From positions 1 through 41,862 of the IMG/VR virus record IMGVR_UViG_3300009169_000037: a stretch of DNA of 41,862 nt. One strand, given 5' to 3'. Numbering within the stretch: the stretch's first letter is position 1; each line of letters opens with the position of its first letter. Source of the stretch: a virus. The position numbers and the translations under genes were made by a program. The notes beneath the pieces were generated by a model. It saw only the letters and a program-made list of their open reading frames with translations. It was not told the origin of the DNA and ran no database searches. This document shows, piece by piece, positions 22,174 to 35,735 of the stretch.

Positions 22174-24468
22174 TTAAGATAAACCACCGTGACCATTAGA
22201 GCAAGCCCCGTGTGTTCTACGTGACAATGTCAAATCACTAAAATCAGAAGCATTTCCAGGAACACTAATAGTAATATAATCAATAATATTAGTGTCTGTT
22301 GATGTACCAATAGCACCACCACTAAATAAACCTCTAATGCTATTTGAACAAGACGATGGGTTATGTGATACAGTCAAATCTCCAAAATCCGAGGCATTAC
22401 CTAAACTATCAATGGTAATATAATCAATAATGTTATAATATGTAGTAGTGAACTGATTCCACCCGCCTCCAAAAACACCTCTAGTGGAAGATGAACAAGC
22501 TCCTAAATAAGACCTGCCAAGAGGGGCATCACCAAAATCTGCCGCATTACCAGCAGTGTTTATGGTAACATAATCGATGGTATTAGAAACATCGGAACCA
22601 GTACTACCGCCTATAAAAACACCACGAGTAGGAGAAGAACATGATGCACAACCATGCCTTCCTACTGTTAGATCTCCAAAATCCGTAACACTGCCAGCAC
22701 TACTTAAAGTAATATAATCAATAACATTTAAAACAGAGTAACCTCCTCCAAACAAACCCCTAACGGAGTTAGAACAAGCCGCTACAGAATACCTCGCGTA
22801 AGAAGAATTACCAAAAATAGAAGCATCGCCAAGAGTACTAAAATTAACATAGTCAAGCCTGTTGGAAGTATCGCCTGTATAACCACACGCAAACACACCG
22901 CGAACTGAAGATGAACAAGCTGCTAAATACCTTCTAGAAACAGTCAAATCGCCAAAATCGGCAGCATTTCCTAAAGTAGAAATTGCGACATAATCTATTA
23001 TATTAAGATAAGAGGTTGTCAATGCCGCATATCCACCACCAAACAATCCTCTATCTCCTATAACTGGGTAATCAGTAGATCTACTATAAGAAGTAGTAGG
23101 AGGAGTGAAATTAGAAGTCCATCGAGCAATTCCTTTAGAGATACGAAGTTCATCTATATAACCATTCAATCTATTATTACCATCAGTTGATCTACCACCA
23201 ATACCAAGCGTTAAATCTGATGTGTATAAAGCATTAGCAAAAGATAATGATGCGGTCTGTTGCACACCATCTACGTACAAATTGAAAACATTACCGTTGC
23301 GAACTAGGGCTATATGATAGAACGCACCAGAAGTCAATGTACTATTAGATTTAATAGATTTATCATAATCACTACCATTTATTGATAAATAAGCATAAAG
23401 ATAATTATCACTACCCATCATAATCAACCAACTACATTTAGTGTTTGTATGATCCCACTGGCTAGCTATATATTGATATGTGCCTAACACTATCAATCTA
23501 AACCAAGTGTCAATGGTAAAATCACCGGTTCCAAATTGCCAATCGGCAGAAGCTGGTACAGTTAGATAATCACCAGTTCCATCAAAATAGTAAGATCCAT
23601 TCCATTTCGTAGTGGCAGCGTTTAACTTTGTATCGCCGGCGAAAGTAATTTCATTTACAGAATCACTCTCGTCGCCGTCAAAATGAAGAAGAAGTTTAGT
23701 GTAAGAATCTGAAGTATAAGCGGAGGTGGAAGGTGTAAACGTGGTAGTCCAGCGGGCTATACCTTTAGAAATCCTAAACTCATCCAAATAACCATTCAGA
23801 TAATTAGATGTAAGTTCTCCCATTCTTCCTATACCTAAAGTGGTAGTAGCATTATTCACCGACACTCCAGTTACATCGTAGGTGCCTTGCGAACTACCGT
23901 CTAAAAATAATCGCAACGTATTACCATCCCTCAAGAACGCTATATGATGCCAATCGGTATCAATTATAGACCCTGAAGATATTATAGGATAAACATTAGA
24001 TCCTGAATTAACTTGGGCTCTTATCGTGTTATCAGCTAAAATTTGTATCGCAAAACTCACAGAAGCAGTTTCCCCGATAGAGTTAATTTGCCCGGCCAGC
24101 CTATGTTGAACGCCTATAATCGCTCTTCTAACCCAAAAATCCACCGTGAAATCCCCTGATCCAAAATTCCAGTCGTCACTGTCAGTTACAGACAAATAGT
24201 CATCGGAACCATCAAAATATATACTTGAAGCCCCAACTTTCTTTACTATGGAAGATAGTTTAGGACCACCATTAGTAGTAATTTGATTTTGAGAAGCGGA
24301 TCTGTCACCGTCCATATGGAGAGCTAGTTTGGTGTAACTATCTATACCTCCAGCTATGGCTGGGGCACTACCTCCACCTGGATATTTTCCAATGTTAGCC
24401 TTAGTGATAGCAAACATTTTACCCAGATTGTTTATATCTGTAGTCCAGATTTTTGAGACATTAGCCAT
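22174..24468 (-). CDS. Receptor-binding protein: anchor, two LamG-like domains, six kelch-like repeats
   Basis: 764 residues, GAGGAG before the ATG. Residues 1-36 are the shared anchor module (MANVSKIWTTDINNLGKMF ... GGGSAP). Two LamG/concanavalin-like domains follow (about 43-250 and 255-460), paralogous to each other: each has SYTKL-L-H-DGD, YFDG, DFTxDxWxR, LNGYxDE-RISKGIARW. Residues 473-764 hold six repeats of about 48 residues with RGxFxGGY, (N)xIDYxTIxxxGNAxDFGDLTxxRR and ACSxSxR, probably a six-bladed propeller. Fusion of LamG and propeller is unlike the other cassette members. Likely a host-surface binding appendage. Confidence 0.8.
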   Translation of the reverse strand: MANVSKIWTTDINNLGKMFAITKANIGKYPGGGSAPAIAGGIDSYTKLALHMDGDRSASQNQITTNGGPKLSSIVKKVGASSIYFDGSDDYLSVTDSDDWNFGSGDFTVDFWVRRAIIGVQHRLAGQINSIGETASVSFAIQILADNTIRAQVNSGSNVYPIISSGSIIDTDWHHIAFLRDGNTLRLFLDGSSQGTYDVTGVSVNNATTTLGIGRMGELTSNYLNGYLDEFRISKGIARWTTTFTPSTSAYTSDSYTKLLLHFDGDESDSVNEITFAGDTKLNAATTKWNGSYYFDGTGDYLTVPASADWQFGTGDFTIDTWFRLIVLGTYQYIASQWDHTNTKCSWLIMMGSDNYLYAYLSINGSDYDKSIKSNSTLTSGAFYHIALVRNGNVFNLYVDGVQQTASLSFANALYTSDLTLGIGGRSTDGNNRLNGYIDELRISKGIARWTSNFTPPTTSYSRSTDYPVIGDRGLFGGGYAALTTSYLNIIDYVAISTLGNAADFGDLTVSRRYLAACSSSVRGVFACGYTGDTSNRLDYVNFSTLGDASIFGNSSYARYSVAACSNSVRGLFGGGYSVLNVIDYITLSSAGSVTDFGDLTVGRHGCASCSSPTRGVFIGGSTGSDVSNTIDYVTINTAGNAADFGDAPLGRSYLGACSSSTRGVFGGGWNQFTTTYYNIIDYITIDSLGNASDFGDLTVSHNPSSCSNSIRGLFSGGAIGTSTDTNIIDYITISVPGNASDFSDLTLSRRTHGACSNGHGGLS

Positions 24469-24488
24469 TTTATTTTCTCCTCAACTTA
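24464..24488 (-). repeat. 25-bp direct repeat, copy 1 (fibre gene ribosome binding site)
   Basis: This stretch around the ribosome binding site and first codons of the gene at 22174-24468 is identical over 25 bases to positions 32985-33009. Similarity continues, with a few mismatches, into the coding sequence. Confidence 0.85.
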
Positions 24489-25484
24489 AACGTTCGATGT
24501 GGCACAAACATACTCTCTTCCAGATAATAAATCACCAAAGTCAGCGGCATTTCCAGTTGAAGTAATGGTGACATAATCAATGACATTATAGCTATTTCCA
24601 CCACCAAATACACCTCTGTTTCCAGATCCGCTGGAACAAGATCCAAAACCAGCGCGCACTATCGTCAAATCTCCGAAATCAGCAGCATTGCCTGTAGAAG
24701 AAATATTGATATAATCAAGGACATTTACATACGCTGGTGTATTATTCAGACCGCCGGCAAAAATACCTCTATTATTAGTACCATTAGAGCATCCTGAAAG
24801 ATAACGTCTAGCCATCGATAAATTCCCAAAATTAGTGGTATCACCAGCACTTGATATAGTAACATAACCCATGTTTGCATAAGGATCGTTATCATTAACT
24901 CCGCCAGCAAAAACAGCTCTGTTATTTGTCCTATTATCTACAGCCCCAGGAGTTTGTGTTGATCCGTATTGTATATCACCAAACTTACTGGCATTGCCAG
25001 TAGTACTTATGGTAATGTAATCTATTCGAGTTATAGCCCCACCCCCATTATTACCGCCACCAAACAAACCACGTCCATTAGTTCCATTAGAACATCCTGC
25101 CCTAGTATTAGTAGGCGCACTGAATTCTCCAAAACCACTAGCGTTTCCAGGAGTAGAAATAGTTACATAATCTATAGTACATTTATATCCTAAATTATAA
25201 CCGCCGCCGAAAACACCTCTGTTTGAAGTGCCATTCGAACAAGCCGATGATTGTTGTCTAGCCAATGTAAGGTCACCAAAATCTGTGGAATTACCTAGAG
25301 TGGATATAGTAATCTGGTCTATGTTATTTTTAGGGCCTGACCCACCTCCAAATACACCCTTACTACTATCCACTACCGGAGCACTACCACCGCCTGGATA
25401 TTTTGATATGTTGGCTTTAGCGGTAGCAAACATTTTACCAACATTATTAATATTTGTAGACCAAACTTTTGATATATCAGGCAT
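24486..25484 (-). CDS. Six-repeat kelch-like propeller fibre-tip protein
   Basis: 332 residues. The N-terminus MPDISKVWSTNINNVGKMF and PGGGSAP form the shared anchor module. From about residue 44 to the end come six repeats of about 48 residues, each with RG(V/I/L)FGGG, a xIDYxTIS strand, GNAxDFGD and a SNGT turn. The GG doublet and spacing recall kelch motifs. The last repeat ends at CATSNV. Probably a secreted-surface-facing virion tip for receptor binding, inferred from the family design. Confidence 0.78.
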   Translation of the reverse strand: MPDISKVWSTNINNVGKMFATAKANISKYPGGGSAPVVDSSKGVFGGGSGPKNNIDQITISTLGNSTDFGDLTLARQQSSACSNGTSNRGVFGGGYNLGYKCTIDYVTISTPGNASGFGEFSAPTNTRAGCSNGTNGRGLFGGGNNGGGAITRIDYITISTTGNASKFGDIQYGSTQTPGAVDNRTNNRAVFAGGVNDNDPYANMGYVTISSAGDTTNFGNLSMARRYLSGCSNGTNNRGIFAGGLNNTPAYVNVLDYINISSTGNAADFGDLTIVRAGFGSCSSGSGNRGVFGGGNSYNVIDYVTITSTGNAADFGDLLSGREYVCATSNV

Positions 25485-25490
25485 TTTATT

Positions 25491-26552
25491 TTACACCTCT
25501 TTGCTAGGATCTTTGTACATATACCAATCCTCGTGTAAATCTTCTACTCCTATTTGTCTCAATACTTTTTTGTATTCATCTTTAAACTGAGCGCTCATGT
25601 CTTCTAGGAACTTATGTAAATCGTCTATGTCCAGTAGATCGTCTATTGACACGTCTTCTTTGTTTTCCAAGTCGCCCAATTTTCCGGCGCGGCTCTCAAT
25701 ATATTCAGCGACAATCTTACTAGCTGTCATAGGATGAATACCAAACTGACCTAAATATTCAATGGTTCCCATACCTATTCTTCCACTAACCAAAAGATCG
25801 CGGAGTAAAAGAAGGAACCCCATCTGAATGTGGTGTTCCACTTCCGCCTTCTCTAAATCCTGTTCGTCCCAGTTTTCTGGAATACCTTTGTTTTTTATGA
25901 TTTGTAAATAAGAAGATTGAAAAGAAGCTACATCTTTTAGAGCTCCTTCCATGTAAAGCATGGCATCATGAATGCCAGTGATCAACTTTTCCATCTTAAT
26001 CTTTTTCATATCCAGATCAAACATCAAATTCATTTGTTCATCTTCTATCGCAACAACATCACCGGGATAGTCAGCCTTCTGAGCTGCTTCTATCCTTTTG
26101 GGTATTTCATTCAACTGCTTTTCTACTTTACCTATTTCATATCTAATTTTGTTAAGTTTAACATAACTTTCCGCCAGCTTAAATCTGTTTTCCTTGATCG
26201 CTTGGCGGCGATTTTCAATTTCAGTAAGACACTGACGGACTATTCTCATAGGAGAGATTCCGTTCAGCATTGTTAGAGTCATCAGCCTATTCGTTACTTG
26301 GGTGTTTTTCCTGCCTAACGACCTCGTGGCTCGATTTATTTCTGGCATCCTATCTGCGATAGTGGCTAGCTTAGTTTCATCGAATACGTGGAACTTAGGC
26401 ACTAAATCTGTGCCCTCTACCGCCCTTGTAGTAATTTGGTTAAATACGTTTGTTTTATCCAATAAAGCTGTTAATTGCGTATTAGCCTTATCCGCTAAAT
26501 CCAAACCATCCTTAATTATCAAATCTAAACTATTTTCGTTTCCCATAATCAT
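25491..26552 (-). CDS. Helical hypothetical protein within the fibre cassette
   Basis: 353 residues, AAGGAG five bases before the first ATG (MIMGNENS). Nearly all helical with coiled coil around residues 105-160 (ENRRQAIKENRFKLAESYVK, YEIGKVEKQLNEIPKRIEA). The C-terminal part is acidic (VSIDDLLDIDDLHKFLEDM). It has no repeats or beta domain like its fibre neighbours. Family not recognised; a chaperone or assembly role for the fibres would fit its location but is not shown. Confidence 0.7.
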   Translation of the reverse strand: MIMGNENSLDLIIKDGLDLADKANTQLTALLDKTNVFNQITTRAVEGTDLVPKFHVFDETKLATIADRMPEINRATRSLGRKNTQVTNRLMTLTMLNGISPMRIVRQCLTEIENRRQAIKENRFKLAESYVKLNKIRYEIGKVEKQLNEIPKRIEAAQKADYPGDVVAIEDEQMNLMFDLDMKKIKMEKLITGIHDAMLYMEGALKDVASFQSSYLQIIKNKGIPENWDEQDLEKAEVEHHIQMGFLLLLRDLLVSGRIGMGTIEYLGQFGIHPMTASKIVAEYIESRAGKLGDLENKEDVSIDDLLDIDDLHKFLEDMSAQFKDEYKKVLRQIGVEDLHEDWYMYKDPSKEV

Positions 26553-26577
26553 TAAATCTCCTTTTCTGTTTTAATTA

Positions 26578-27606
26578 TTAAGCATTAGAGCATGCATTAC
26601 AGCTGCTCCTTGCAACCGTTAAGTCGCCAAAATCCGATGTATCACCAGTAGTGTTAATAGTCGCATAAGCAACTACATTGGTGTATCCTCCAAAATACCA
26701 ACCACCTGTAAACAACGCCTTATTACTAGTTCCATTAGAAGTCGCACCAGCACCACCACCTATCGACTGCATATCTCCGAAATCAGAAGCATTTCCCGTG
26801 GTATTAATAGTGATGTAATCAATGATATTGTAATTAGCAACATAATCATACCCACCAGTATAAATAAATCTTTCACCAGTCAAGTTAGAAGTACCAACTG
26901 CTCCGTATTCAACTCTTCTTCCATCTCCAAAATCAGCAGCATTACCTGTAGTAGAAATAGTTATATAATCAATGACATTGGTTGCGCTGGACCCTCCTGT
27001 GTAACCACCCACAAAAACACCTCTACCATTTGTGCCGTTAGAACCAGCAGCTACATATTCTCTACTAACCGTCACATCCCCAAAATCAGAAGCATTACCT
27101 GTAGTAGCAATGGTTATGTAGTTTATCACATTATTAACCTGAGCCCCAATTCCCCCAGCAAATATACCCCTACCAGTCGTATTATTCGAAGTTCCGCCAG
27201 TTGCGCCTGCATTACCGGTCAAATTTCCAAAATTTGAGGAATTTGATGGAGAGTTTATTGTAACATAACTTATAGAACTTACACCTCCCCAATCCCATCC
27301 TACAGTGCCACCACCAGCTATACCTCTACCAGTAACTCCGTTCGAGGTAGCGGCTAAATAACTTCTTGCAACTACCATATCTCCAAAGTCAGTAGCGTTG
27401 GTGTTGGTAGAAATGTTAATGGTATCTATAGTGTTGGTCTGGGCACCAGAACCACCATTGTAACCGCTAAAAATAACACCTTTGGCACTGGAAGTAGGAG
27501 GGGCACTACCACCCCCTGGAAATTTACCAATGTTGGCTTTGGTGGTAGCAAACATCTTGCCTAAATTACTTATGCTAATTGACCATACTTTAGAAACGTC
27601 AGCCAT
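26578..27606 (-). CDS. Six-repeat kelch-like propeller fibre-tip protein
   Basis: 342 residues. Anchor module MADVSKVWSISISNLGKMF with PGGGSAP, then six repeats of 46-53 residues from about 43 onward. Consensus is RGxFxGGY, NxIDYITIxTTGNAxDFGD, xxSNGT. Repeat 2 is most divergent (SSISYVTINSPSNSSNFGNL). It is closely related to the genes at 24486 and 33755. Likely receptor-binding, by analogy with other repeat-tip fibre proteins. Confidence 0.78.
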   Translation of the reverse strand: MADVSKVWSISISNLGKMFATTKANIGKFPGGGSAPPTSSAKGVIFSGYNGGSGAQTNTIDTINISTNTNATDFGDMVVARSYLAATSNGVTGRGIAGGGTVGWDWGGVSSISYVTINSPSNSSNFGNLTGNAGATGGTSNNTTGRGIFAGGIGAQVNNVINYITIATTGNASDFGDVTVSREYVAAGSNGTNGRGVFVGGYTGGSSATNVIDYITISTTGNAADFGDGRRVEYGAVGTSNLTGERFIYTGGYDYVANYNIIDYITINTTGNASDFGDMQSIGGGAGATSNGTSNKALFTGGWYFGGYTNVVAYATINTTGDTSDFGDLTVARSSCNACSNA

Positions 27607-27620
27607 TTAGTTTTTACCCC

Positions 27621-28079
27621 TTACGTGTAATATAATTCGATATTAGTTATACTAAAACTACCACCTTCAAAATACAAACGACCCCAGGTATCAGTAATGG
27701 TGAAATCAGCCTCTTTGCCTGAAGTGTAATCAGAATCATCATAATAATGCGCTGATCCACCGGCGTCTCTAACTGACATTGTCAAAGGACTAGCCCCCTC
27801 AAAAGTTATACGTATTTTAGTGCCAGAAGGGGCTGTCAACACCGACAGCACAACTTCCCAACCATTAGAACGCCAACTTGTTGGAGGATCTTCAGGATCG
27901 TCATACCACCAACCTTGGTTGGATTCCCATTCGGTGTTGTCAAAATGAACATGCCAATTGTCTCCGCCACCGCCAGCAACTTTTTGGTCCATAAAACGCA
28001 TATTTGCTACTTTAGTTATAGATAAAATCGAGCCAACATTATTAATAGGTGTATCCCAAATTTTTGCTATATCAGCCAT
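27621..28079 (-). CDS. Short fibre-tip protein: anchor plus small beta-sandwich
   Basis: 152 residues. The anchor module MADIAKIWDTPINNVGSIL is kept, but instead of repeats there is one C-terminal domain of about 110 residues (WHVHFDNTEWES, GWEVVLSVLTAPSGTKIRIT, WGRLYFEGGSFSITNIELYY). Aromatic-rich beta strands suggest a carbohydrate-binding-type sandwich. It shows the anchor joined to yet another tip type. Confidence 0.65.
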   Translation of the reverse strand: MADIAKIWDTPINNVGSILSITKVANMRFMDQKVAGGGGDNWHVHFDNTEWESNQGWWYDDPEDPPTSWRSNGWEVVLSVLTAPSGTKIRITFEGASPLTMSVRDAGGSAHYYDDSDYTSGKEADFTITDTWGRLYFEGGSFSITNIELYYT

Positions 28080-28093
28080 TTTTATTTACCCCT

Positions 28094-28573
28094 TTATCCT
28101 GAATAAGTTGGTAATTCAATATTGTAAGCCACTAATTCAGCATAATCAGTGATAGATGTCACATCAGATTCCACTGTAACAACAGCGGACCTAATTGACG
28201 ATCTGTAGTTCTCCACATCCGTAGGAATAGCAACATCGACTTCGTATTTTCTAATTACATACCAGTCAAAAGGATGTAATATTTCCCAAGCCATCATTTT
28301 AGCTTGATCTTTCTTTACTTCTCTTACACCAGACACAGTGTACTTTGGTTCTACTGAATGTGTGGCTACTACTTCACCCGCGACAATTTCTTCTGTAACC
28401 CCAGTGCTTGTGTAATATTCACCATTATACTGAACTTCACGATAAGGATAAATGTCGAGGGCATTCATCTCAGGGATTGACCACACATAAAACATACTAG
28501 CTGGGTAAAGAACACCGCTAATAGTTACATCTCTAGGTTTGCTAATAATTGCGCCATCAGGCAATTTCCACAT
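28094..28573 (-). CDS. Fibre-tip or tail fibre assembly-like protein
   Basis: 159 residues, AAGGAG before the ATG. The opening MWKLPDGAIISKPRDVTISG, ALDIYPYREV, and HPFDWYVIRKYEVDVAIPTD followed by VENYRSSIRSA match a conserved pattern (DWxVIRxxE, VPxxVxxYRxxIR) found in many phage tail fibre assembly or tip proteins. It is in the middle of the fibre cassette. Exact role cannot be separated between structural tip and chaperone. Confidence 0.6.
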   Translation of the reverse strand: MWKLPDGAIISKPRDVTISGVLYPASMFYVWSIPEMNALDIYPYREVQYNGEYYTSTGVTEEIVAGEVVATHSVEPKYTVSGVREVKKDQAKMMAWEILHPFDWYVIRKYEVDVAIPTDVENYRSSIRSAVVTVESDVTSITDYAELVAYNIELPTYSG

Positions 28574-28590
28574 AGTTTATTCTCCTTTGT

Positions 28591-31035
28591 TTATCTTGCG
28601 GTACTATATTTAAAGGGCGTCTCGGCCCAAGCCATAAAAATGTATCTATCTCCAGAATAGTTCCAATCGTATCCAGCATGTCTCAACTTAAAACCGTTAG
28701 CAAGCAAATCAACCACGTTATAAGAAGTACTTTCAGAAGAAGTAGTTTCAGCCCATATCTGATGGTTGCTCACATTATATGTATCACGCTCCGCGTCAAT
28801 TAAAGTCCATGATCCAGCCCCACTCAAATACCCACTAGCGTGCTTCCAAATAATTAGTTTGGGTTTAAATCCGCAATATACAAACGTACCATTAGTGGAG
28901 CCGTTTCCTATAAAATAACTAAACTTCGAAAAGCCTTCTATTTCAGACCATAAATAAGCTACGTGATCTTTCCCACTTTCATTATTACCAGTATTAGCAC
29001 CTACGGTAAATTGAGTAGCTGTTGGAGCTGTATCGTTCCATACAGTGTTATTATCACTAGCGCCACCACCAGTATCCAAAGCCATCCAGTCTGTTTCAGG
29101 ATCAGTCGCCATAAACATGTGTAGCGTATACCAGTCCTGTGCAGATGTAGCATTTCTTTCTTTTGTAATCAATAATTTAGGAGCTATGCCTAGAGAATGA
29201 TTTATGTTTTGAACTGATCCTGTTCCAGTATAAGCTACAATATCAAATCCATAGGCAGCGCCTTTTTTCCAACACCAATTTACATAATTATGAGTGTTGT
29301 AGTTATAGTAAGATCCTGCGGCTCCAATGGTAAAACCCGTAGAGGAAACTCCCGATAAATAACCATAAGAATTATATTGACCTTCGTGATATGTTTCATT
29401 AGGATACAACTGCTTTCCGCTAGCAAATCCTCTAACACTATCCATTAAGGTATGATCGACATTATCACTTCTATTTTTACTCCATACCATATCAGACTGA
29501 AAACTTAAACCAGACAATGTTCTAGGTGCAGTACCATCACCTGTATAAAGTATAGTATCAAATGCTGTAGAGGACATTACAATTGAAGGAGTCTCTAAAT
29601 TGTAGGAGCAGACTGCTAAGAAATTTGTAGGCGGAGCGTATTCAAAATTACCTATCCCATTTGAGTCAGTATTTCCAGAAGCAACATTTGCTGAATCCTG
29701 ACCAAAATTAGCGTATAAAGCAGAGCTTCTTGATTCAACAGTTGGAGAATAAACTTTACCTATAGTCAGGGTGGTTGTCTCGTTAGTACCCGCAGCAGGA
29801 TTACCACTTCCATACCAAGTACCATTCAAACCAAACCATATTTTTCTATTATCCGTATCTATCGCGATACTAATAATATCCCCAGTTGTAATAGAGGCCG
29901 GTGATCCAAACTCAGAATTTTCTTTTACATATTTAGAATACGTGCTATAAAAATAATGTCCTATACCTTCCACATAAGTGACATCGTTTATCATAATATC
30001 AGAAGTAATAGGCAAAACACCTATAACACTACCATTGCTAGCAGCTGAAGTTACTTTCACTTCCCAATACCATTTTCCATACGTCAATGCTAAAGTAGAT
30101 CGCACCGCAGGATAAGAAGCCCCATTTCCAACAAATTTCAAATTCCCTTCAGTTAATGTGCCACCTCCGTTACCAATATCGAGAGGATTTAATACACAAA
30201 AATTGTTGGTAGGGCTATCCGTTATTTGATCGGTGGTAGTAAGCCCACTAGATGTAAAATCATTGTTATTCCCAGAAATGTCGTTTCCTAAGTCTGAAGC
30301 ATTAGCGAAATCCAAATGAAAACCATTAGTGCCGTAAGTCCCAGCGTAAGCTTTAGGAATCCAAGCGCCTGTGGTAGCACTGATTTCTCCGAAAGAAGAG
30401 GGGGTTAGTTGCTGACCATTGATCATATACACATCCGAGATATAACCATTAAAATAGTACCCAACAGTGGGCTCACCATAACCACCCACACGATGTACAC
30501 AAGCAGCACCTACCGCTCCTTCATCATTCTGAGTAGGATAAGTAGCGACAGCCCCGGTATACTGGACACCGTTAACATACAACTTAAATCTATTAGTATT
30601 TGTAGCTTGAGTAGTATCCAAAGCCACCACAATATGATACCAAGCCGAAGGATCGCGATAAAAAGAAACCGTATCACAATTTATTGACAGGCTATTAGCC
30701 CAAGATACCACTTGCATGTATTGCGGCCCGAAGATCAATCTAAATCTATAATTACCATCCACATAAGCATCAAATAGGGGTGGAACAGAGGTAGTCATGC
30801 TACCTAATTTTGCCCACATAGATAAGGTCCAGGTCTTTCTGTTACCCGCGCCAGAAAATGTCTTTGTCAAATAAGGGCTGTCTGGATTATTAAATCTACA
30901 GGAGTAATCCACCTCGTAAACTGGCTCAGATCCACCAACAAGTATTCCCATTATCTTACCAATACCGGATTTAGCAATTCCGAATAATTTACCCACATTG
31001 GAGTACAATACTGACAGGATTGAATTAACAGCCAT
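28591..31035 (-). CDS. Large adhesin: anchor, LamG-like, SPRY-like and phage repeat C-terminal domains
   Basis: 814 residues from ATG at 31035, chosen because GGAGAT lies eight bases upstream; a longer frame would overlap the preceding gene. Residues 1-36 are an anchor variant (MAVNSILSVLYSNVGKLFGI). Residues 55-205 are LamG-like (KTWTLSMWAKL, YHIVVALDTT, FKLYVNGVQ). Residues 318-448 are SPRY-like (GKWYWEVKVTS, IAIDTDNRKIWFGLNGTW). From 495 on, two or more copies of a unit with YTGxGxxxxLxHSLG, PKLLITKERN and DWMALDTGG resemble a domain seen in marine phage fibres. Likely a receptor-binding virion protein. Confidence 0.78.
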   Translation of the reverse strand: MAVNSILSVLYSNVGKLFGIAKSGIGKIMGILVGGSEPVYEVDYSCRFNNPDSPYLTKTFSGAGNRKTWTLSMWAKLGSMTTSVPPLFDAYVDGNYRFRLIFGPQYMQVVSWANSLSINCDTVSFYRDPSAWYHIVVALDTTQATNTNRFKLYVNGVQYTGAVATYPTQNDEGAVGAACVHRVGGYGEPTVGYYFNGYISDVYMINGQQLTPSSFGEISATTGAWIPKAYAGTYGTNGFHLDFANASDLGNDISGNNNDFTSSGLTTTDQITDSPTNNFCVLNPLDIGNGGGTLTEGNLKFVGNGASYPAVRSTLALTYGKWYWEVKVTSAASNGSVIGVLPITSDIMINDVTYVEGIGHYFYSTYSKYVKENSEFGSPASITTGDIISIAIDTDNRKIWFGLNGTWYGSGNPAAGTNETTTLTIGKVYSPTVESRSSALYANFGQDSANVASGNTDSNGIGNFEYAPPTNFLAVCSYNLETPSIVMSSTAFDTILYTGDGTAPRTLSGLSFQSDMVWSKNRSDNVDHTLMDSVRGFASGKQLYPNETYHEGQYNSYGYLSGVSSTGFTIGAAGSYYNYNTHNYVNWCWKKGAAYGFDIVAYTGTGSVQNINHSLGIAPKLLITKERNATSAQDWYTLHMFMATDPETDWMALDTGGGASDNNTVWNDTAPTATQFTVGANTGNNESGKDHVAYLWSEIEGFSKFSYFIGNGSTNGTFVYCGFKPKLIIWKHASGYLSGAGSWTLIDAERDTYNVSNHQIWAETTSSESTSYNVVDLLANGFKLRHAGYDWNYSGDRYIFMAWAETPFKYSTAR

Positions 31036-31051
31036 TTTTTTATCTCCAGTG

Positions 31052-32938
31052 TTAAGAAATTTCAGCAATGATATATGAAGGATTAAAATAAATAGTATCA
31101 GCACTCAAAGCAAATCCAACAATTTGAGCTTGTTGACCAACTCCAGATACAACAGTTTGGGTCATTTGACCTGTCGTAGCACTTACAAATAAATTACCGC
31201 TAGACCAGTTCCAGGCGGTATTACAGACTTGTCCTTTTAGCAAAATCTTTTTTGACCCCGAACCATTTTCCAAGGTCACCGCTACTGCCGGCATTGTCGT
31301 CGCGCTATCCGCATCCGCGCGGTCGTAATGAAAATCGGCGGCGCAGTATAAAACATCACCAAACACCGCAGAAGCGTCATCAACAGTAGCAGTTATGTAT
31401 TCACCAGCGTAAGAGCCACTAGTTGTTAAAATAGTACTTCCAAAAACATAACCCATAGTGTTAGGAATTTGTGATACTATATCTCCGCTGCTAGTTGTAA
31501 ATTGTGTTATAGATAATTTCTCGTCATCTAATTCTTGAATAGCTATTTGAACGTTTGTAGACGAAATATTACCATATGGTACAAACACTACAGATGAAGC
31601 ATTAGATGCTGGTACTCCACCAGCTGGTAAAGAAGAACTGTTTCTATAGTCAACACCTTCCTGATAAGCACCGTCACCTTTATAAATCCATTTATAAATC
31701 AACTTAATCTCTGGTACTAAATTTAGACCAGACAAAGACGGTATAGACTCTGATCGTGCCGAAGTCACGGTACCATGCGCAGTTGATGCTGAAGTAGGTA
31801 TAATATAGATAGGTCTATCAACGTCATTAGTGGCATAAACCCACATCACCACGTATTGATTATCAGGTACACTTGTTAATGTATAATTGTCTGTGTCAAG
31901 ATATTGAGGATCTCCAGAAGAACCAGCGTATGGTAGAGAGGAATCCGCAAATGTATAACTTCCAGCGGCTGCCTGATAAAATACCCTTGAAATAGTTTGA
32001 GTTCCAAAAGTAACAGCTAAATCCTCATCATAAATAGTGCCGCCAGTTAAACTAAGCACTGCCCCTGAAATAGTAGATGGGTAAGTTTGAGCTATACCAG
32101 TATAGTATCTAGCTCCTATAGTTAAATGAGCGTTAATATGCCAATCAATATCTCTAGTATAACTATGAGTTTCTTTTCCAATAGCGCCGGCAGAACCATT
32201 CCAATACACAACTGATATAGGAACTTTGTCATGTAAATCCCAAAAAGAATTCCCAGCTTTTAAAGTACCACTATCATCATCAAAATAGACATAATAAAGA
32301 GTTCTAGCTGTTATAGACAAGTAATCATCTAAATCACAAGTAATTGAATTATTAATAGTAACTCTACTACCTTTATACCAGTAAACATTAGTTCCCGAAG
32401 CCACAGTCACTATGTGGGTAGAATTATTAAAAGATAAAGCACCCATAGATTCAACACCATGATACTTTTCCGTACCTTGTATTTTAGTGTCTATAGACCC
32501 TGAAATAACATCGACTTCGCCCTCTGTATAATATCTATCATCATGAGTATGAACAGTAGGGGCTCTGTCATTGATATTGGTTTGCAAGTCTCCAGAAATA
32601 GTTGTTATTTCAGATTCGGTATAATATCTAGCGTCCCCTCTAGCAGTCGTTAAATATTGAGTATGATCATCCGCATTTAGATTTAGTAAATTACTATGAG
32701 AAACACTACTACCTTCAGCTGCCCAAACCATCCCGCTAGCTGTGGTATATTTCATAAAATAACCATCCACAGGAGCATTAGCGATAGATAACTTATCTTC
32801 TGATACGGCATCAGAAGCTATGTCTGTGCCAGAAATAGTAGACGCAGCTATTTTATCCCCAGTAATAGTCTCTGGGGCTATATCCTCGTCTTCTATAGTC
32901 AGATCTTTAATCTGATCACCACGGATTACTGTGGTCAT
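31052..32938 (-). CDS. Fibre protein with DUF2190-like C-terminal domain
   Basis: 628 residues. Its ribosome binding site AAGGAG lies inside the end of a 15-codon remnant frame just upstream. The N-terminus has pentapeptide-like steps (MTTVIRGDQIKDLTIEDEDI, ETITGDKIAASTISGTDIAS), an SNLLNLNADDHTQYL shaft motif and two YYTExE motifs. A large middle beta domain spans about 155-440. The last 125 residues are the domain shared with the genes at 2892 and 34851 (AVFGDVLYCAADF, KKILLKGQVCNTAWNWSSG, IVGFALSADTIYFNPSY). Confidence 0.78.
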   Translation of the reverse strand: MTTVIRGDQIKDLTIEDEDIAPETITGDKIAASTISGTDIASDAVSEDKLSIANAPVDGYFMKYTTASGMVWAAEGSSVSHSNLLNLNADDHTQYLTTARGDARYYTESEITTISGDLQTNINDRAPTVHTHDDRYYTEGEVDVISGSIDTKIQGTEKYHGVESMGALSFNNSTHIVTVASGTNVYWYKGSRVTINNSITCDLDDYLSITARTLYYVYFDDDSGTLKAGNSFWDLHDKVPISVVYWNGSAGAIGKETHSYTRDIDWHINAHLTIGARYYTGIAQTYPSTISGAVLSLTGGTIYDEDLAVTFGTQTISRVFYQAAAGSYTFADSSLPYAGSSGDPQYLDTDNYTLTSVPDNQYVVMWVYATNDVDRPIYIIPTSASTAHGTVTSARSESIPSLSGLNLVPEIKLIYKWIYKGDGAYQEGVDYRNSSSLPAGGVPASNASSVVFVPYGNISSTNVQIAIQELDDEKLSITQFTTSSGDIVSQIPNTMGYVFGSTILTTSGSYAGEYITATVDDASAVFGDVLYCAADFHYDRADADSATTMPAVAVTLENGSGSKKILLKGQVCNTAWNWSSGNLFVSATTGQMTQTVVSGVGQQAQIVGFALSADTIYFNPSYIIAEIS

Positions 32939-32941
32939 TGT

Positions 32942-32989
32942 TTACTCCTTGTTAATGCCGACTGTCCAAATTTTTGAAACATCAGCCAT
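32942..32989 (-). pseudogene. 15-codon remnant of the fibre anchor module
   Basis: With GAGGAG before its ATG, this frame reads MADVSKIWTVGINKE and then stops. The first 13 residues match the anchor module of the propeller genes (MADVSKVWSISISN), but it ends where the others continue with GKMF. Its last codons supply the AAGGAG used by the next gene. It looks like a truncated copy left by recombination, or a short leader coupling translation of 31052-32938. Confidence 0.75.
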
Positions 32990-33009
32990 TTTATTTTCTC
33001 CTCAACTTA
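32985..33009 (-). repeat. 25-bp direct repeat, copy 2
   Basis: Identical over 25 bases to 24464-24488. Here it encodes the last codons of the glycosyltransferase (DKLRRK and its stop) as well as the ribosome binding site and start of the remnant frame. This marks a likely recombination junction. Confidence 0.85.
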
Positions 33010-33734
33010 TCCAACAGGAACACATTGGATTTTTTGGATTTATTCAGCCTAATCCTAAAAATCTCATTGAGTTGTGCCTCGGACACTCTAAAAGAATACA
33101 TACCGTTATGAACTGGTATCTGTGTGAAATCCACATGGATCTTGTATCCTAGTTCTCTTAATCTGTAACATAGATAGTAATCTTCAGGTAAATAATGTCC
33201 ATCTACTACACCTATTTTGAATACATCGTAACTTTCTTTTGATAATTGTTCCCCCCGTGAAAAACGAGGGTCATCATCGTATTTGTCTGACACTTTGATA
33301 ATGTCCGTTACAGCTTTTCTAGACAACATCAACACTGCATTCCCTACGTGCTGCACTTCCGCCAGTCCAGTTTCATCGAATGAGTGGATATCACCTATAT
33401 TCAACACAGGCAACCCTAAAGCATCTACTCCTTTTAAAGGCACTGGACAACCTATTACATCTACGTTTCTTTGTAATAAAGCAGGTATAGTATTAGATCC
33501 TAAACCTATGTCTGCATCTAAATAAACCAAATGAGTAAATCTTTCGTTCTCGTGAAAGTAAGAAATCAAACTGTTTCTTGCTTTTGGCACCAAGGAATTG
33601 TTTCCTATGGTTACTATTTCAACACCCACTCCGTGGGCCATTCCTCCACGAACCAGGGCAATAACCGAATTCAGGTAATCTATGTGAACCATACATCCAT
33701 AAGCCGGTGTTGCTATCATCAAATTCAAATCCAT
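32991..33734 (-). CDS. Glycosyltransferase, GT-A type
   Basis: 247 residues from ATG at 33734 with GGGAGGG upstream; a TTG nine codons earlier lacks one. The N-terminal strand MDLNLMIATPAYG, KARNSLISYF, the DxD-type motif LVYLDADIG (69-77), VGNAVLMLSR (130-139), and LPEDYYLCYRLRELGYKIHV (182-201) followed by His209 are typical of small phage GT-A transferases. It would move a sugar onto virion protein or another acceptor. It lies among receptor-binding genes, so appendage glycosylation is possible. The last few residues overlap a 25-bp duplicated segment. Confidence 0.82.
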   Translation of the reverse strand: MDLNLMIATPAYGCMVHIDYLNSVIALVRGGMAHGVGVEIVTIGNNSLVPKARNSLISYFHENERFTHLVYLDADIGLGSNTIPALLQRNVDVIGCPVPLKGVDALGLPVLNIGDIHSFDETGLAEVQHVGNAVLMLSRKAVTDIIKVSDKYDDDPRFSRGEQLSKESYDVFKIGVVDGHYLPEDYYLCYRLRELGYKIHVDFTQIPVHNGMYSFRVSEAQLNEIFRIRLNKSKKSNVFLLDKLRRK

Positions 33735-33754
33735 AATAAATCCCTCCCAAGTAA

Positions 33755-34789
33755 TTAACAATCAGATGTTCCAGTATTTTGGTATACATACAATCGTATA
33801 GCCACATCCCCAAAATCGGCAGCATTTCCAGTACTGTTAATGGTTATATAATCTATGTTGTTTATATAATCTGTAGAGTACCCTCCAGCAAAAATACCTC
33901 TATTACTAGTGCCGTTTGAAGTTCCTCCAAAATTTCTCTTTGCCGAAGTCAAATCCCCAAAATCAATAGAATTACCTGCGGCATTAACAGTTATATACTC
34001 TACTATATTAATGTTTACACTGCTCCTATTATAACCCCCTGCAAAAATTCCTCTCTCACTAGTGCCGTTGGAAATACCAGCGGCTAAGGTTCTGCCTCCA
34101 GCATTCAGATTGCCAAAATTAGCACAACTACTAGCGGTAGATATGGTAGTGTATTCTATGTTGGTGTACCCTGTGCTCATAGTACTACTATCATATTGAC
34201 CCGCTGCAAAAACACCCCTGTCATTGACAGAGTTTGATAATCCAGATCTTCTAGTTAAAGGGCCTACACTAGATTGGATATAAGAAGTAGCATTACCTGT
34301 ACTAGCAATATTGAAATAATAAATACGATTCGAACAGCTAGCTGGTGTGTTAGTATTCTTTACACCCATTGCATTCATAGATCTATTGCTGGTACCATTT
34401 GATACACTTGCGCATCCATAACATCTATTTTCTTCAAGAGATATGTCGCCAAAGTCGGTAGCGTTTCCTGGAGTACTCATGGTTATATAATCTATGGTGT
34501 TATAGGTATTACCATTGCCTCCAAAAAATACAGCGCGGCCATTAGATCCATTAGATGACGCAGATGGAGCTCTACCATCAGTCAAATCCCCAAAATCTTG
34601 CGTATTACCAAAAGTACTTATAGAAACATATTGTATAGTGTTGTCATTTCCAGAAAAAATACCTCTACCGGCAGCTACAGCAGGTATATTTCCGGCTCCC
34701 ATAAAACTTTTAGCAGAGGATTTAGAAGTCACAAATAACTTACCTACGTTCCCTATACTTACACTCCATATTTTAGAAATGTCAGCCAT
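33755..34789 (-). CDS. Six-repeat kelch-like propeller fibre-tip protein, with one degenerate repeat
   Basis: 344 residues, GTGAGG before the ATG. Anchor module MADISKIWSVSIGNVGKLF, then six repeats of 43-55 residues. Repeats 5 and 6 follow the consensus closely (RGIFAGGY, DYITINSTGNAADFGD); repeat 3 has lost the GG doublet and DFGD (RSMNAMGVKNTNT, IASTGNATSYIQ). Repeat 1 is shortest. The C-terminus LYVYQNTGTSDC differs from the SNA/SNV ends of its relatives. Confidence 0.78.
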   Translation of the reverse strand: MADISKIWSVSIGNVGKLFVTSKSSAKSFMGAGNIPAVAAGRGIFSGNDNTIQYVSISTFGNTQDFGDLTDGRAPSASSNGSNGRAVFFGGNGNTYNTIDYITMSTPGNATDFGDISLEENRCYGCASVSNGTSNRSMNAMGVKNTNTPASCSNRIYYFNIASTGNATSYIQSSVGPLTRRSGLSNSVNDRGVFAAGQYDSSTMSTGYTNIEYTTISTASSCANFGNLNAGGRTLAAGISNGTSERGIFAGGYNRSSVNINIVEYITVNAAGNSIDFGDLTSAKRNFGGTSNGTSNRGIFAGGYSTDYINNIDYITINSTGNAADFGDVAIRLYVYQNTGTSDC

Positions 34790-34850: not shown

Positions 34851-35735
34851 TTACGCAATTTCTACAGTCCCATATTCTGGGTTGAAGAAAATAGTGTCGG
34901 CGCTAAGAGCATAACCAACAATCTGAACCTGATTACTAGAAGCCGCAGGAGCAGTCTGTGTAAGAGTACCAACAGTAGTACTTACATAAATGTCCTTACC
35001 AGGAGTCCAGTTCCAAGATGTGTCACAGATCTGTCCCTTATGGAAGATCTTCTTCGATCCTGAACCAGATTCAAGAGCCAAAGCTCTACATGGCATAGTT
35101 CCAGACGCAGTTGCGTTAGCCCTATCATAATTCCCATCAGAAGCGCAATAAAGAGGATTACCAAAAGCGGCACTTCCGTCATCTACGGTAACAGTCATGA
35201 TCTCACCTTCGTAAGTATCATCACCAGTTAGAGGAGCCCCATAATTCAAACTCTTATCATTCAAATCAAGATTACCACCAAGCTGTGGAGCTGTGTCATC
35301 TACTACAGCTGAAATACCACCAGTGCCACCACCTTGAGTAATCAAATAAGTAACCAACAGAATATCCCCAGTAGCTGGAGCAACAACAAATGTGATAGTA
35401 TCGCCAGAGATAGTATAGTCGTCACCAACACCCCTTTCCTGCAACAAACCATTCAAGTAAACCATGTCGGTATTAGCAAGAGGAGTATTAGCTAGGGTAT
35501 AAGTAACATTAGACCCATTAATATCTCCAGTAGGTACTTCACTCACGATCATCTCAGAAAGAGTTACATCACTCCACTGCATACCACTAGCGGTAGTGTA
35601 TTTCAGGAAGCGACCGTCTGAAGGATCATTTGCGATGTTCAACTTTACTTCAGGGATAGTACTGTCGATTAAATGACCGCCAGAGATGGTAGTCTCTTCA
35701 ATCTGCGCACCACGAATAGCAGTGTTTAAAGGCAT
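34851..35735 (-). CDS. Short fibre protein with NGLLQ and DUF2190-like domains
   Basis: 294 residues, GGAGGG before the ATG. The N-terminus MPLNTAIRGAQIEETTISGG resembles the neighbour at 36388 (MATKIRGAQINEAIAG). Residues about 60-135 hold the NGLLQ domain (VYLNGLLQERGVGDDYTISG, TGDILLVTYLI). Residues about 165-294 are the shared C-terminal beta domain (MTVTVDDGSAAFGNPLYCAS, KKIFHKGQICDTSWNWTPG, IVGYALSADTIFFNPEY). Appears to be a compact form of the larger fibre proteins. Confidence 0.78.
   Translation of the reverse strand: MPLNTAIRGAQIEETTISGGHLIDSTIPEVKLNIANDPSDGRFLKYTTASGMQWSDVTLSEMIVSEVPTGDINGSNVTYTLANTPLANTDMVYLNGLLQERGVGDDYTISGDTITFVVAPATGDILLVTYLITQGGGTGGISAVVDDTAPQLGGNLDLNDKSLNYGAPLTGDDTYEGEIMTVTVDDGSAAFGNPLYCASDGNYDRANATASGTMPCRALALESGSGSKKIFHKGQICDTSWNWTPGKDIYVSTTVGTLTQTAPAASSNQVQIVGYALSADTIFFNPEYGTVEIA

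Follow-up and report, generated by a model that had tools for sequence, protein, structure and literature searches.

Six-bladed kelch-type propellers in an array of putative viral tail adhesins, with blade numbers in multiples of six among relatives

A single virus carries four genes whose products each end in a run of related repeats, which raises the questions of whether a shared repeat number reflects a closed ring and what a virus might do with four such rings. A sequence-only reading of this DNA proposed that the repeats are kelch-like, that each set of six closes into a propeller, and that the four proteins serve as parallel tips in a multi-receptor or switchable host-binding set. Here we analyse the linear virus record in question (IMG/VR record IMGVR_UViG_3300009169_000037; 41,862 bases), referred to in its entirety as the window, together with its relatives. 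We consider it likely that the four genes constitute an array of parallel kelch-type tail adhesins. That their C-terminal parts are closed six-bladed propellers is strongly supported by a predicted fold and by repeat counting.

Tip genes of the window

The four propeller genes, designated here by their first position, are present where they had been reported, all on the minus strand (Table 1). With a profile derived from repeats of the window itself, exactly six repeats, of 42-55 residues, were confirmed in each gene, and the exact motif GNAxDFGD occurs 10 times in the window versus 0 expected from dinucleotide shuffles. The description of every repeat by an RGxFxGG doublet, an IDYxTI strand, and GNAxDFGD stands as a consensus, but several repeats are degenerate, such as repeat 3 of gene 33755 (RSMNAMG...YYFNIASTGNATSYIQ). 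The four propeller proteins are mutually about 45-50% identical, and 22174 is set apart from the other three by two LamG domains ahead of its propeller. An HGGL motif lies C-terminal to the last repeat in gene 22174 and in many relatives, and the other three window copies are without it.

The tip genes of this phage also have in common an N-terminal anchor with the consensus MADxSKxWSxxIxNxGKMFAxTKANIGK. The first 28-36 residues are common to the four propeller genes and gene 27621, with a variant form in gene 28591, so that the window anchor occurs on propeller, LamG-propeller, and PPC-like tips and the variant on a SPRY/DUF7483 tip.

Table 1. Tip genes, repeat regions, and neighbouring features of the window
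Feature	Coordinates	Strand	Basis
Tip gene 1: anchor, two LamG domains, six-bladed propeller, C-terminus HGGLS	22174..24468	-	translation, profile scans
Six repeats of gene 22174	22186..23052	-	repeat profile
Two LamG (concanavalin A-like) domains of gene 22174, limits approximate	23077..24213	-	profile scans
Tip gene 2: anchor, six-bladed propeller; protein modelled by AlphaFold2	24486..25484	-	repeat profile, fold model
Six repeats of gene 24486	24492..25361	-	repeat profile
HX: helical hairpin protein (phrog_1409 family), conserved neighbour of propeller genes	25491..26552	-	
Tip gene 3: anchor, six-bladed propeller	26578..27606	-	repeat profile
Six repeats of gene 26578	26584..27483	-	repeat profile
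Same anchor on PPC-like C-terminal part (weak Pfam match)	27621..28079	-	
SPRY/DUF7483 tip with a variant anchor (start MAVNSILSVLYSNVGKLFGIAKSGIGKI; true start probably at 31035)	28591..31035	-	
Anchor relic, 15 codons, MADVSKIWTVGINKE then stop; just upstream of gene 31052	32942..32989	-	
Glycosyltransferase-like gene (phrog_1574), overlapping 3' end of gene 33755	32991..33761	-	
Tip gene 4: anchor, six-bladed propeller; most degenerate repeats of the set	33755..34789	-	repeat profile
Six repeats of gene 33755	33767..34666	-	repeat profile

Fold and variable face of the repeat region

One of the four window proteins, the product of gene 24486, was modelled with AlphaFold2 from its own sequence and 112 further sequences; the other three have the same repeat pattern according to the repeat profile. 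The model contains six blades of four strands each, with a mean pLDDT of 90.8 (about 96 over the repeats) and a pTM of 0.86. The anchor is predicted at low confidence (pLDDT 53-66), with a helix at residues 12-28. Foldseek places the model on kelch propellers (E about 1e-16 to 1e-19), and VIA-align superposes it on the kelch domain of Keap1 with a Z of 37.5 and 1.9 Å over 277 residues. This superposition is co-linear, matching residues 37-331 with Keap1 322-609 and reaching both chain ends in the predicted structure, where the last strand (327-330) is modelled. The designed six-bladed kelch rings known as SAKe score still closer (Z 38-39), and Keap1 and SAKe both superpose co-linearly on the window propeller at 1.8-1.9 Å. 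In general architecture the window family resembles Keap1, KLHL12, KLHL3, Plasmodium kelch, and SAKe, all of which likewise have six four-stranded blades, a repeat of about 50 residues, and a glycine doublet after the first strand. Across 1488 repeats of the family, the two positions of this doublet are glycine in 83% and 92%, the tyrosine of IDY is present in 78%, and phenylalanine is present in 95% at a place that we assigned by eye to the kelch tryptophan; this phenylalanine, in DFGD, stands about where kelch domains have tryptophan. Because identity to the Keap1/KLHL kelch domains is only about 14%, and because none of the four window proteins matched the Pfam Kelch families up to an E of 1, we term the family kelch-type by fold rather than a member of Pfam Kelch. 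The proposed kelch likeness is thus borne out by the AlphaFold2 model and its superposition on Keap1, and not by Pfam profiles.

Variation within the repeats is unevenly distributed. Over the same 1488 repeats, entropy peaks chiefly at the AB loop (columns 8-14, of widely varying length) and at the CD segment (columns 36-41), while the BC and DA turns are more conserved. In a four-stranded blade, the AB and CD loops lie on one face and the chain ends exit from the opposite face. The chain ends would then sit on the BC/DA face, and the AB and CD segments, whose variability is seen directly in the repeats, would together form the opposite face and may serve as the receptor-binding surface. Keap1 contacts Nrf2 mainly through its BC and DA loops, and so binds its ligand elsewhere than on the AB/CD face that varies in the window family.

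Blade number among relatives

Relatives were recovered with a DNA pattern for GNAxDFGD, where single-sequence and window-alignment scans had been unsuccessful; the pattern identified 120 stretches in IMG/VR, and other searches added further loci. About 220 contigs contributed 327 distinct complete ORFs to the resulting count set, in which loci of the same viral lineage are not independent and no weighting by phylogeny was applied. After correction for gaps, the blade count is 6 in 252 ORFs, 12 in 59, and 18 in 3. The other 13 consist of split-gene pieces (10 ORFs, considered below), one ORF (L060) with 11 detected repeats and a visible degenerate first repeat, a lone three-repeat frame (L032), and an ORF with 11 repeats (L088), these last two being left as frame-broken. 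We considered whether counts of 5 and 11 might be true exceptions and rejected this, as nearly all such proteins have a gap or end of 40-80 residues with a degenerate repeat. No well-supported exception to a blade number of 6, 12, or 18 was seen across more than 300 relatives. Repeat counts varying freely among relatives, which would speak against a closed ring, were looked for and not seen in the 327 ORFs.

The positions of the linkers follow the same periodicity. Repeats 6 and 7 are separated by the longest linker in 52 of the 54 proteins where twelve repeats were detected, its median length being 18.5 residues compared to 1 elsewhere, and the two longest linkers of the first 18-repeat protein fall at 6/7 and 12/13. 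Counts that rise in steps of six, together with a linker wherever a set of six is complete, support the closed six-bladed propeller independently of the model. Blade number thus persists where most of the sequence has changed, the median pairwise identity between propellers being about 42%. With over 300 rings that have diverged strongly yet keep to multiples of six, the family provides a natural data set in which the effect of closure on repeat proteins is tested directly.

The fixed six may in part reflect inheritance without turnover. Blades are hardly more alike within proteins than between them (46% versus 45% identity) and carry almost no position memory, and a test for re-amplification of blades inside a protein gave no support for it.

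Split propeller genes

In some relatives, the six repeats are divided between two adjacent ORFs. From a listing of adjacent frames whose repeat counts are not multiples of six, we identified five unrelated real splits: L022 (1+5), L140/L144 (2+4), L212/L215 (2+4), L154 (3+3), and L047 (4+2). The remaining pairs of that listing were either frames that overlap or genes whose repeats had been undercounted. L212 and L215 do not differ in the split region and may derive from one source. A sixth case, L222/L228 (3+3), came from a scan for the junction pattern and is not counted towards the argument from position, as that scan specified the position.

All five have the same layout. The first ORF stops just past strand A and the glycine doublet (e.g. 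RICFAGGDS; RGVFSLGIT in L212), and in the second the initiating ATG precedes strand B by a few residues (MARVDVIEYITIAS, MAKRDTIDYITTAS). This stop overlaps the start as TAATG or abuts it (TAAATG in L140/L144). The glycine codons give a G-rich, Shine-Dalgarno-like stretch upstream of the second start (AGGAGGT in L140), such that the codons of the conserved doublet would resemble a ribosome-binding site for the second gene. That all five breaks fall in a loop of about 7 residues within a repeat of about 48 has, by our own estimate, a chance probability on the order of 1e-4, and the break lies in the AB loop in all six cases. The sum of n and 6-n blades is not counted as evidence because any split of a six-bladed gene yields six.

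We tentatively hypothesize that some phages form a two-gene, two-chain ring with its break at the AB loop, and that half-rings could be exchanged for new tips; this is quite possible, if short of probable. The first chain would contribute the anchor and n blades along with strand A of the blade that follows, and the second, starting from strand B and without an anchor, would contribute the remainder, the assembly of both chains into one ring being a supposition from the gene layout. Consistent with exchange, the second halves of L222 and L228 are 91% identical while their first halves are 58% identical and have different N-terminal sequences. If two-chain rings do exist, nature would already offer a system in which half-propellers are assembled and exchanged.

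It is also possible, although somewhat doubtful, that there is no two-chain ring, and that these genes yield a full-length protein through frameshifting or stop read-through or carry a second ORF that is a decaying remnant. L154 and L022 have runs of G just before the break that could slip, L140/L144 require read-through of a single TAA only, and the dN/dS values of the paired chains (0.36 and 0.33 in L140/L144; 0.64 and 0.52 in L222/L228) are not very low. On the other hand, L047 has no slippery run, the same loop is broken every time, and one layout, with the second start overlapping or abutting the stop and a G-rich stretch upstream, recurs in six unrelated cases and is kept across separate contigs in both L140/L144 and L222/L228.

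Two-chain rings would not be without parallel. The propeller of BambL is built from several chains, as a homo-oligomer like RSL, and the ring of Sec13 is completed by one partner blade in trans. All three are rings completed by separate chains, as proposed here for the split genes, with the difference that these genes would supply n and 6-n blades from adjacent, coupled ORFs rather than identical subunits or a single blade. RSL is reported to be a trimeric propeller (PMC11883740).

Anchors and the adhesin reading

Anchors follow the genome, whereas propellers barely do. N-terminal scores of at least 50 were found for 44% of within-contig pairs versus 8% of pairs between contigs (AUC 0.80), while propellers are barely more alike within contigs (AUC 0.585). 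This pattern suggests that each genome supplies its own anchor to its tips, which would fix these proteins to a common virion site, probably the tail or baseplate, and leave the C-terminal part, modelled and counted as a closed six-bladed kelch-type propeller, at the tip. Among relatives, whole propeller genes come and go while the blade number remains constant: the nearest relative (L137) keeps HX (75%) and the glycosyltransferase-like gene (73%) and has two propeller genes with another shared N-terminus, and L138/L139 keep both neighbours and have one propeller gene. As closure needs six blades, it is whole rings that are gained or lost rather than single blades, and such turnover would give proteins of 6, 12, or 18 blades and differing numbers of propeller genes. 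The proposal of parallel tips thus gains from the common anchor and from gain or loss of whole genes. A putative multi-receptor role of the set is plausible.

Alternatively, the propellers may be virion decorations or enzymes (e.g. sugar-binding or sugar-cleaving propellers) and not the primary receptor-binding tips. Propellers serve many roles, the two LamG domains of 22174 could themselves bind, and the nearby glycosyltransferase-like gene hints at sugar chemistry; still, we regard this as unlikely, since propeller variation is concentrated on one face and arrays of divergent paralogs on a common N-terminus suit recognition better than a fixed enzyme. That the set is phase-variable, with one tip in use and the others kept as silent spares recombined via their similar 5' ends, is very improbable: three copies agree at 74-79% in their N-terminal DNA and an anchor relic persists (Table 1), but the fourth copy is just 54-61% identical to the others there, every gene has its own start and a purine-rich stretch upstream in a single orientation, and neither a recombinase nor a reverse transcriptase turned up when the larger ORFs were scanned with profiles, leaving the switchable part of the original proposal without support.

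Comparison with known phage kelch proteins

Phage kelch propellers are already known from giant phages. The kelch-like proteins CBB_550, CBB_552, and CBB_554 have been noted in giant phage CBB, with CBB_552 a virion protein, and a kelch-repeat gene has been noted in cyanophage P-HM2 (PMC5259590 and PMC3037559, respectively). Both CBB and BcepSaruman thus resemble the window phage in combining a kelch-type propeller with a tailed phage. The BcepSaruman model resembles the window propeller at an identity of only 19%, and the CBB account, in its available portion, differs from that of the window family in making no mention of counts in sixes, of anchors in common, or of genes divided in two (PMC5259590). 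Synechococcus phage S-SKS1 (L233, L234) has related repeats with the GG doublet and TIDRIDFSNETTSAPGNN, and a linker, GGASERIKGSRT, follows the sixth repeat in both genes with a readable start; these repeats are distant in sequence, and the genes continue past six and are broken by frames or the record end, such that their counts are incomplete. Within the incomplete coverage of our literature search, and from sources available in part, we found neither a description of the window propeller family nor any mention of repeat counts in sixes or of phage propellers split between genes. Single-sequence search recovers almost none of the family from reference phages.

Partner genes

Two further genes accompany the propellers. 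One homologue of HX occurs in each of 78 loci, the window included, and 31 of the 41 pattern loci that extend 3.5 kb or more downstream contain HX. Conversely, propeller genes are found in all 56 HX loci with more than 2.4 kb upstream, although, at 68-95% identity to the query, the HX proteins concerned are not independent. The profile phrog_1409, of unknown function, is matched by 40 of 63 HX members. The predicted structure of HX is a helical hairpin, for which Foldseek found no match at an E of 0.001 and re-alignment gave generic coiled coils only; two HX members, each used as a single-sequence query against reference phages, gave no match. An iterative search from the gene at 34851 drifted onto propellers and was discarded.

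On the basis of linkage, HX may be a dedicated folding or assembly partner of the propellers. In Alteromonas phages V22 and A5, tail-fibre genes are reported to be accompanied by a dedicated chaperone gene (PMC7289586, PMC10579305), an arrangement of adhesin gene and small gene comparable to propeller and HX; no relation of HX to any known chaperone was detected. The glycosyltransferase-like gene (phrog_1574) is found in the same neighbourhood in 22 loci, often directly after HX, and its product could modify the tips. With HX as their conserved partner, the propellers point to an adhesin family that is widespread in viral metagenomes and goes undetected by Pfam profiles. Propeller genes, some with HX and the glycosyltransferase-like gene, also occur in contigs (L130-L136) from bacterial MAG or SAG bins assigned to Nomurabacteria, Pirellulales, Porticoccaceae, Maricaulis, Epulopiscium, and Parcubacteria, which are probably phage contigs or prophages.
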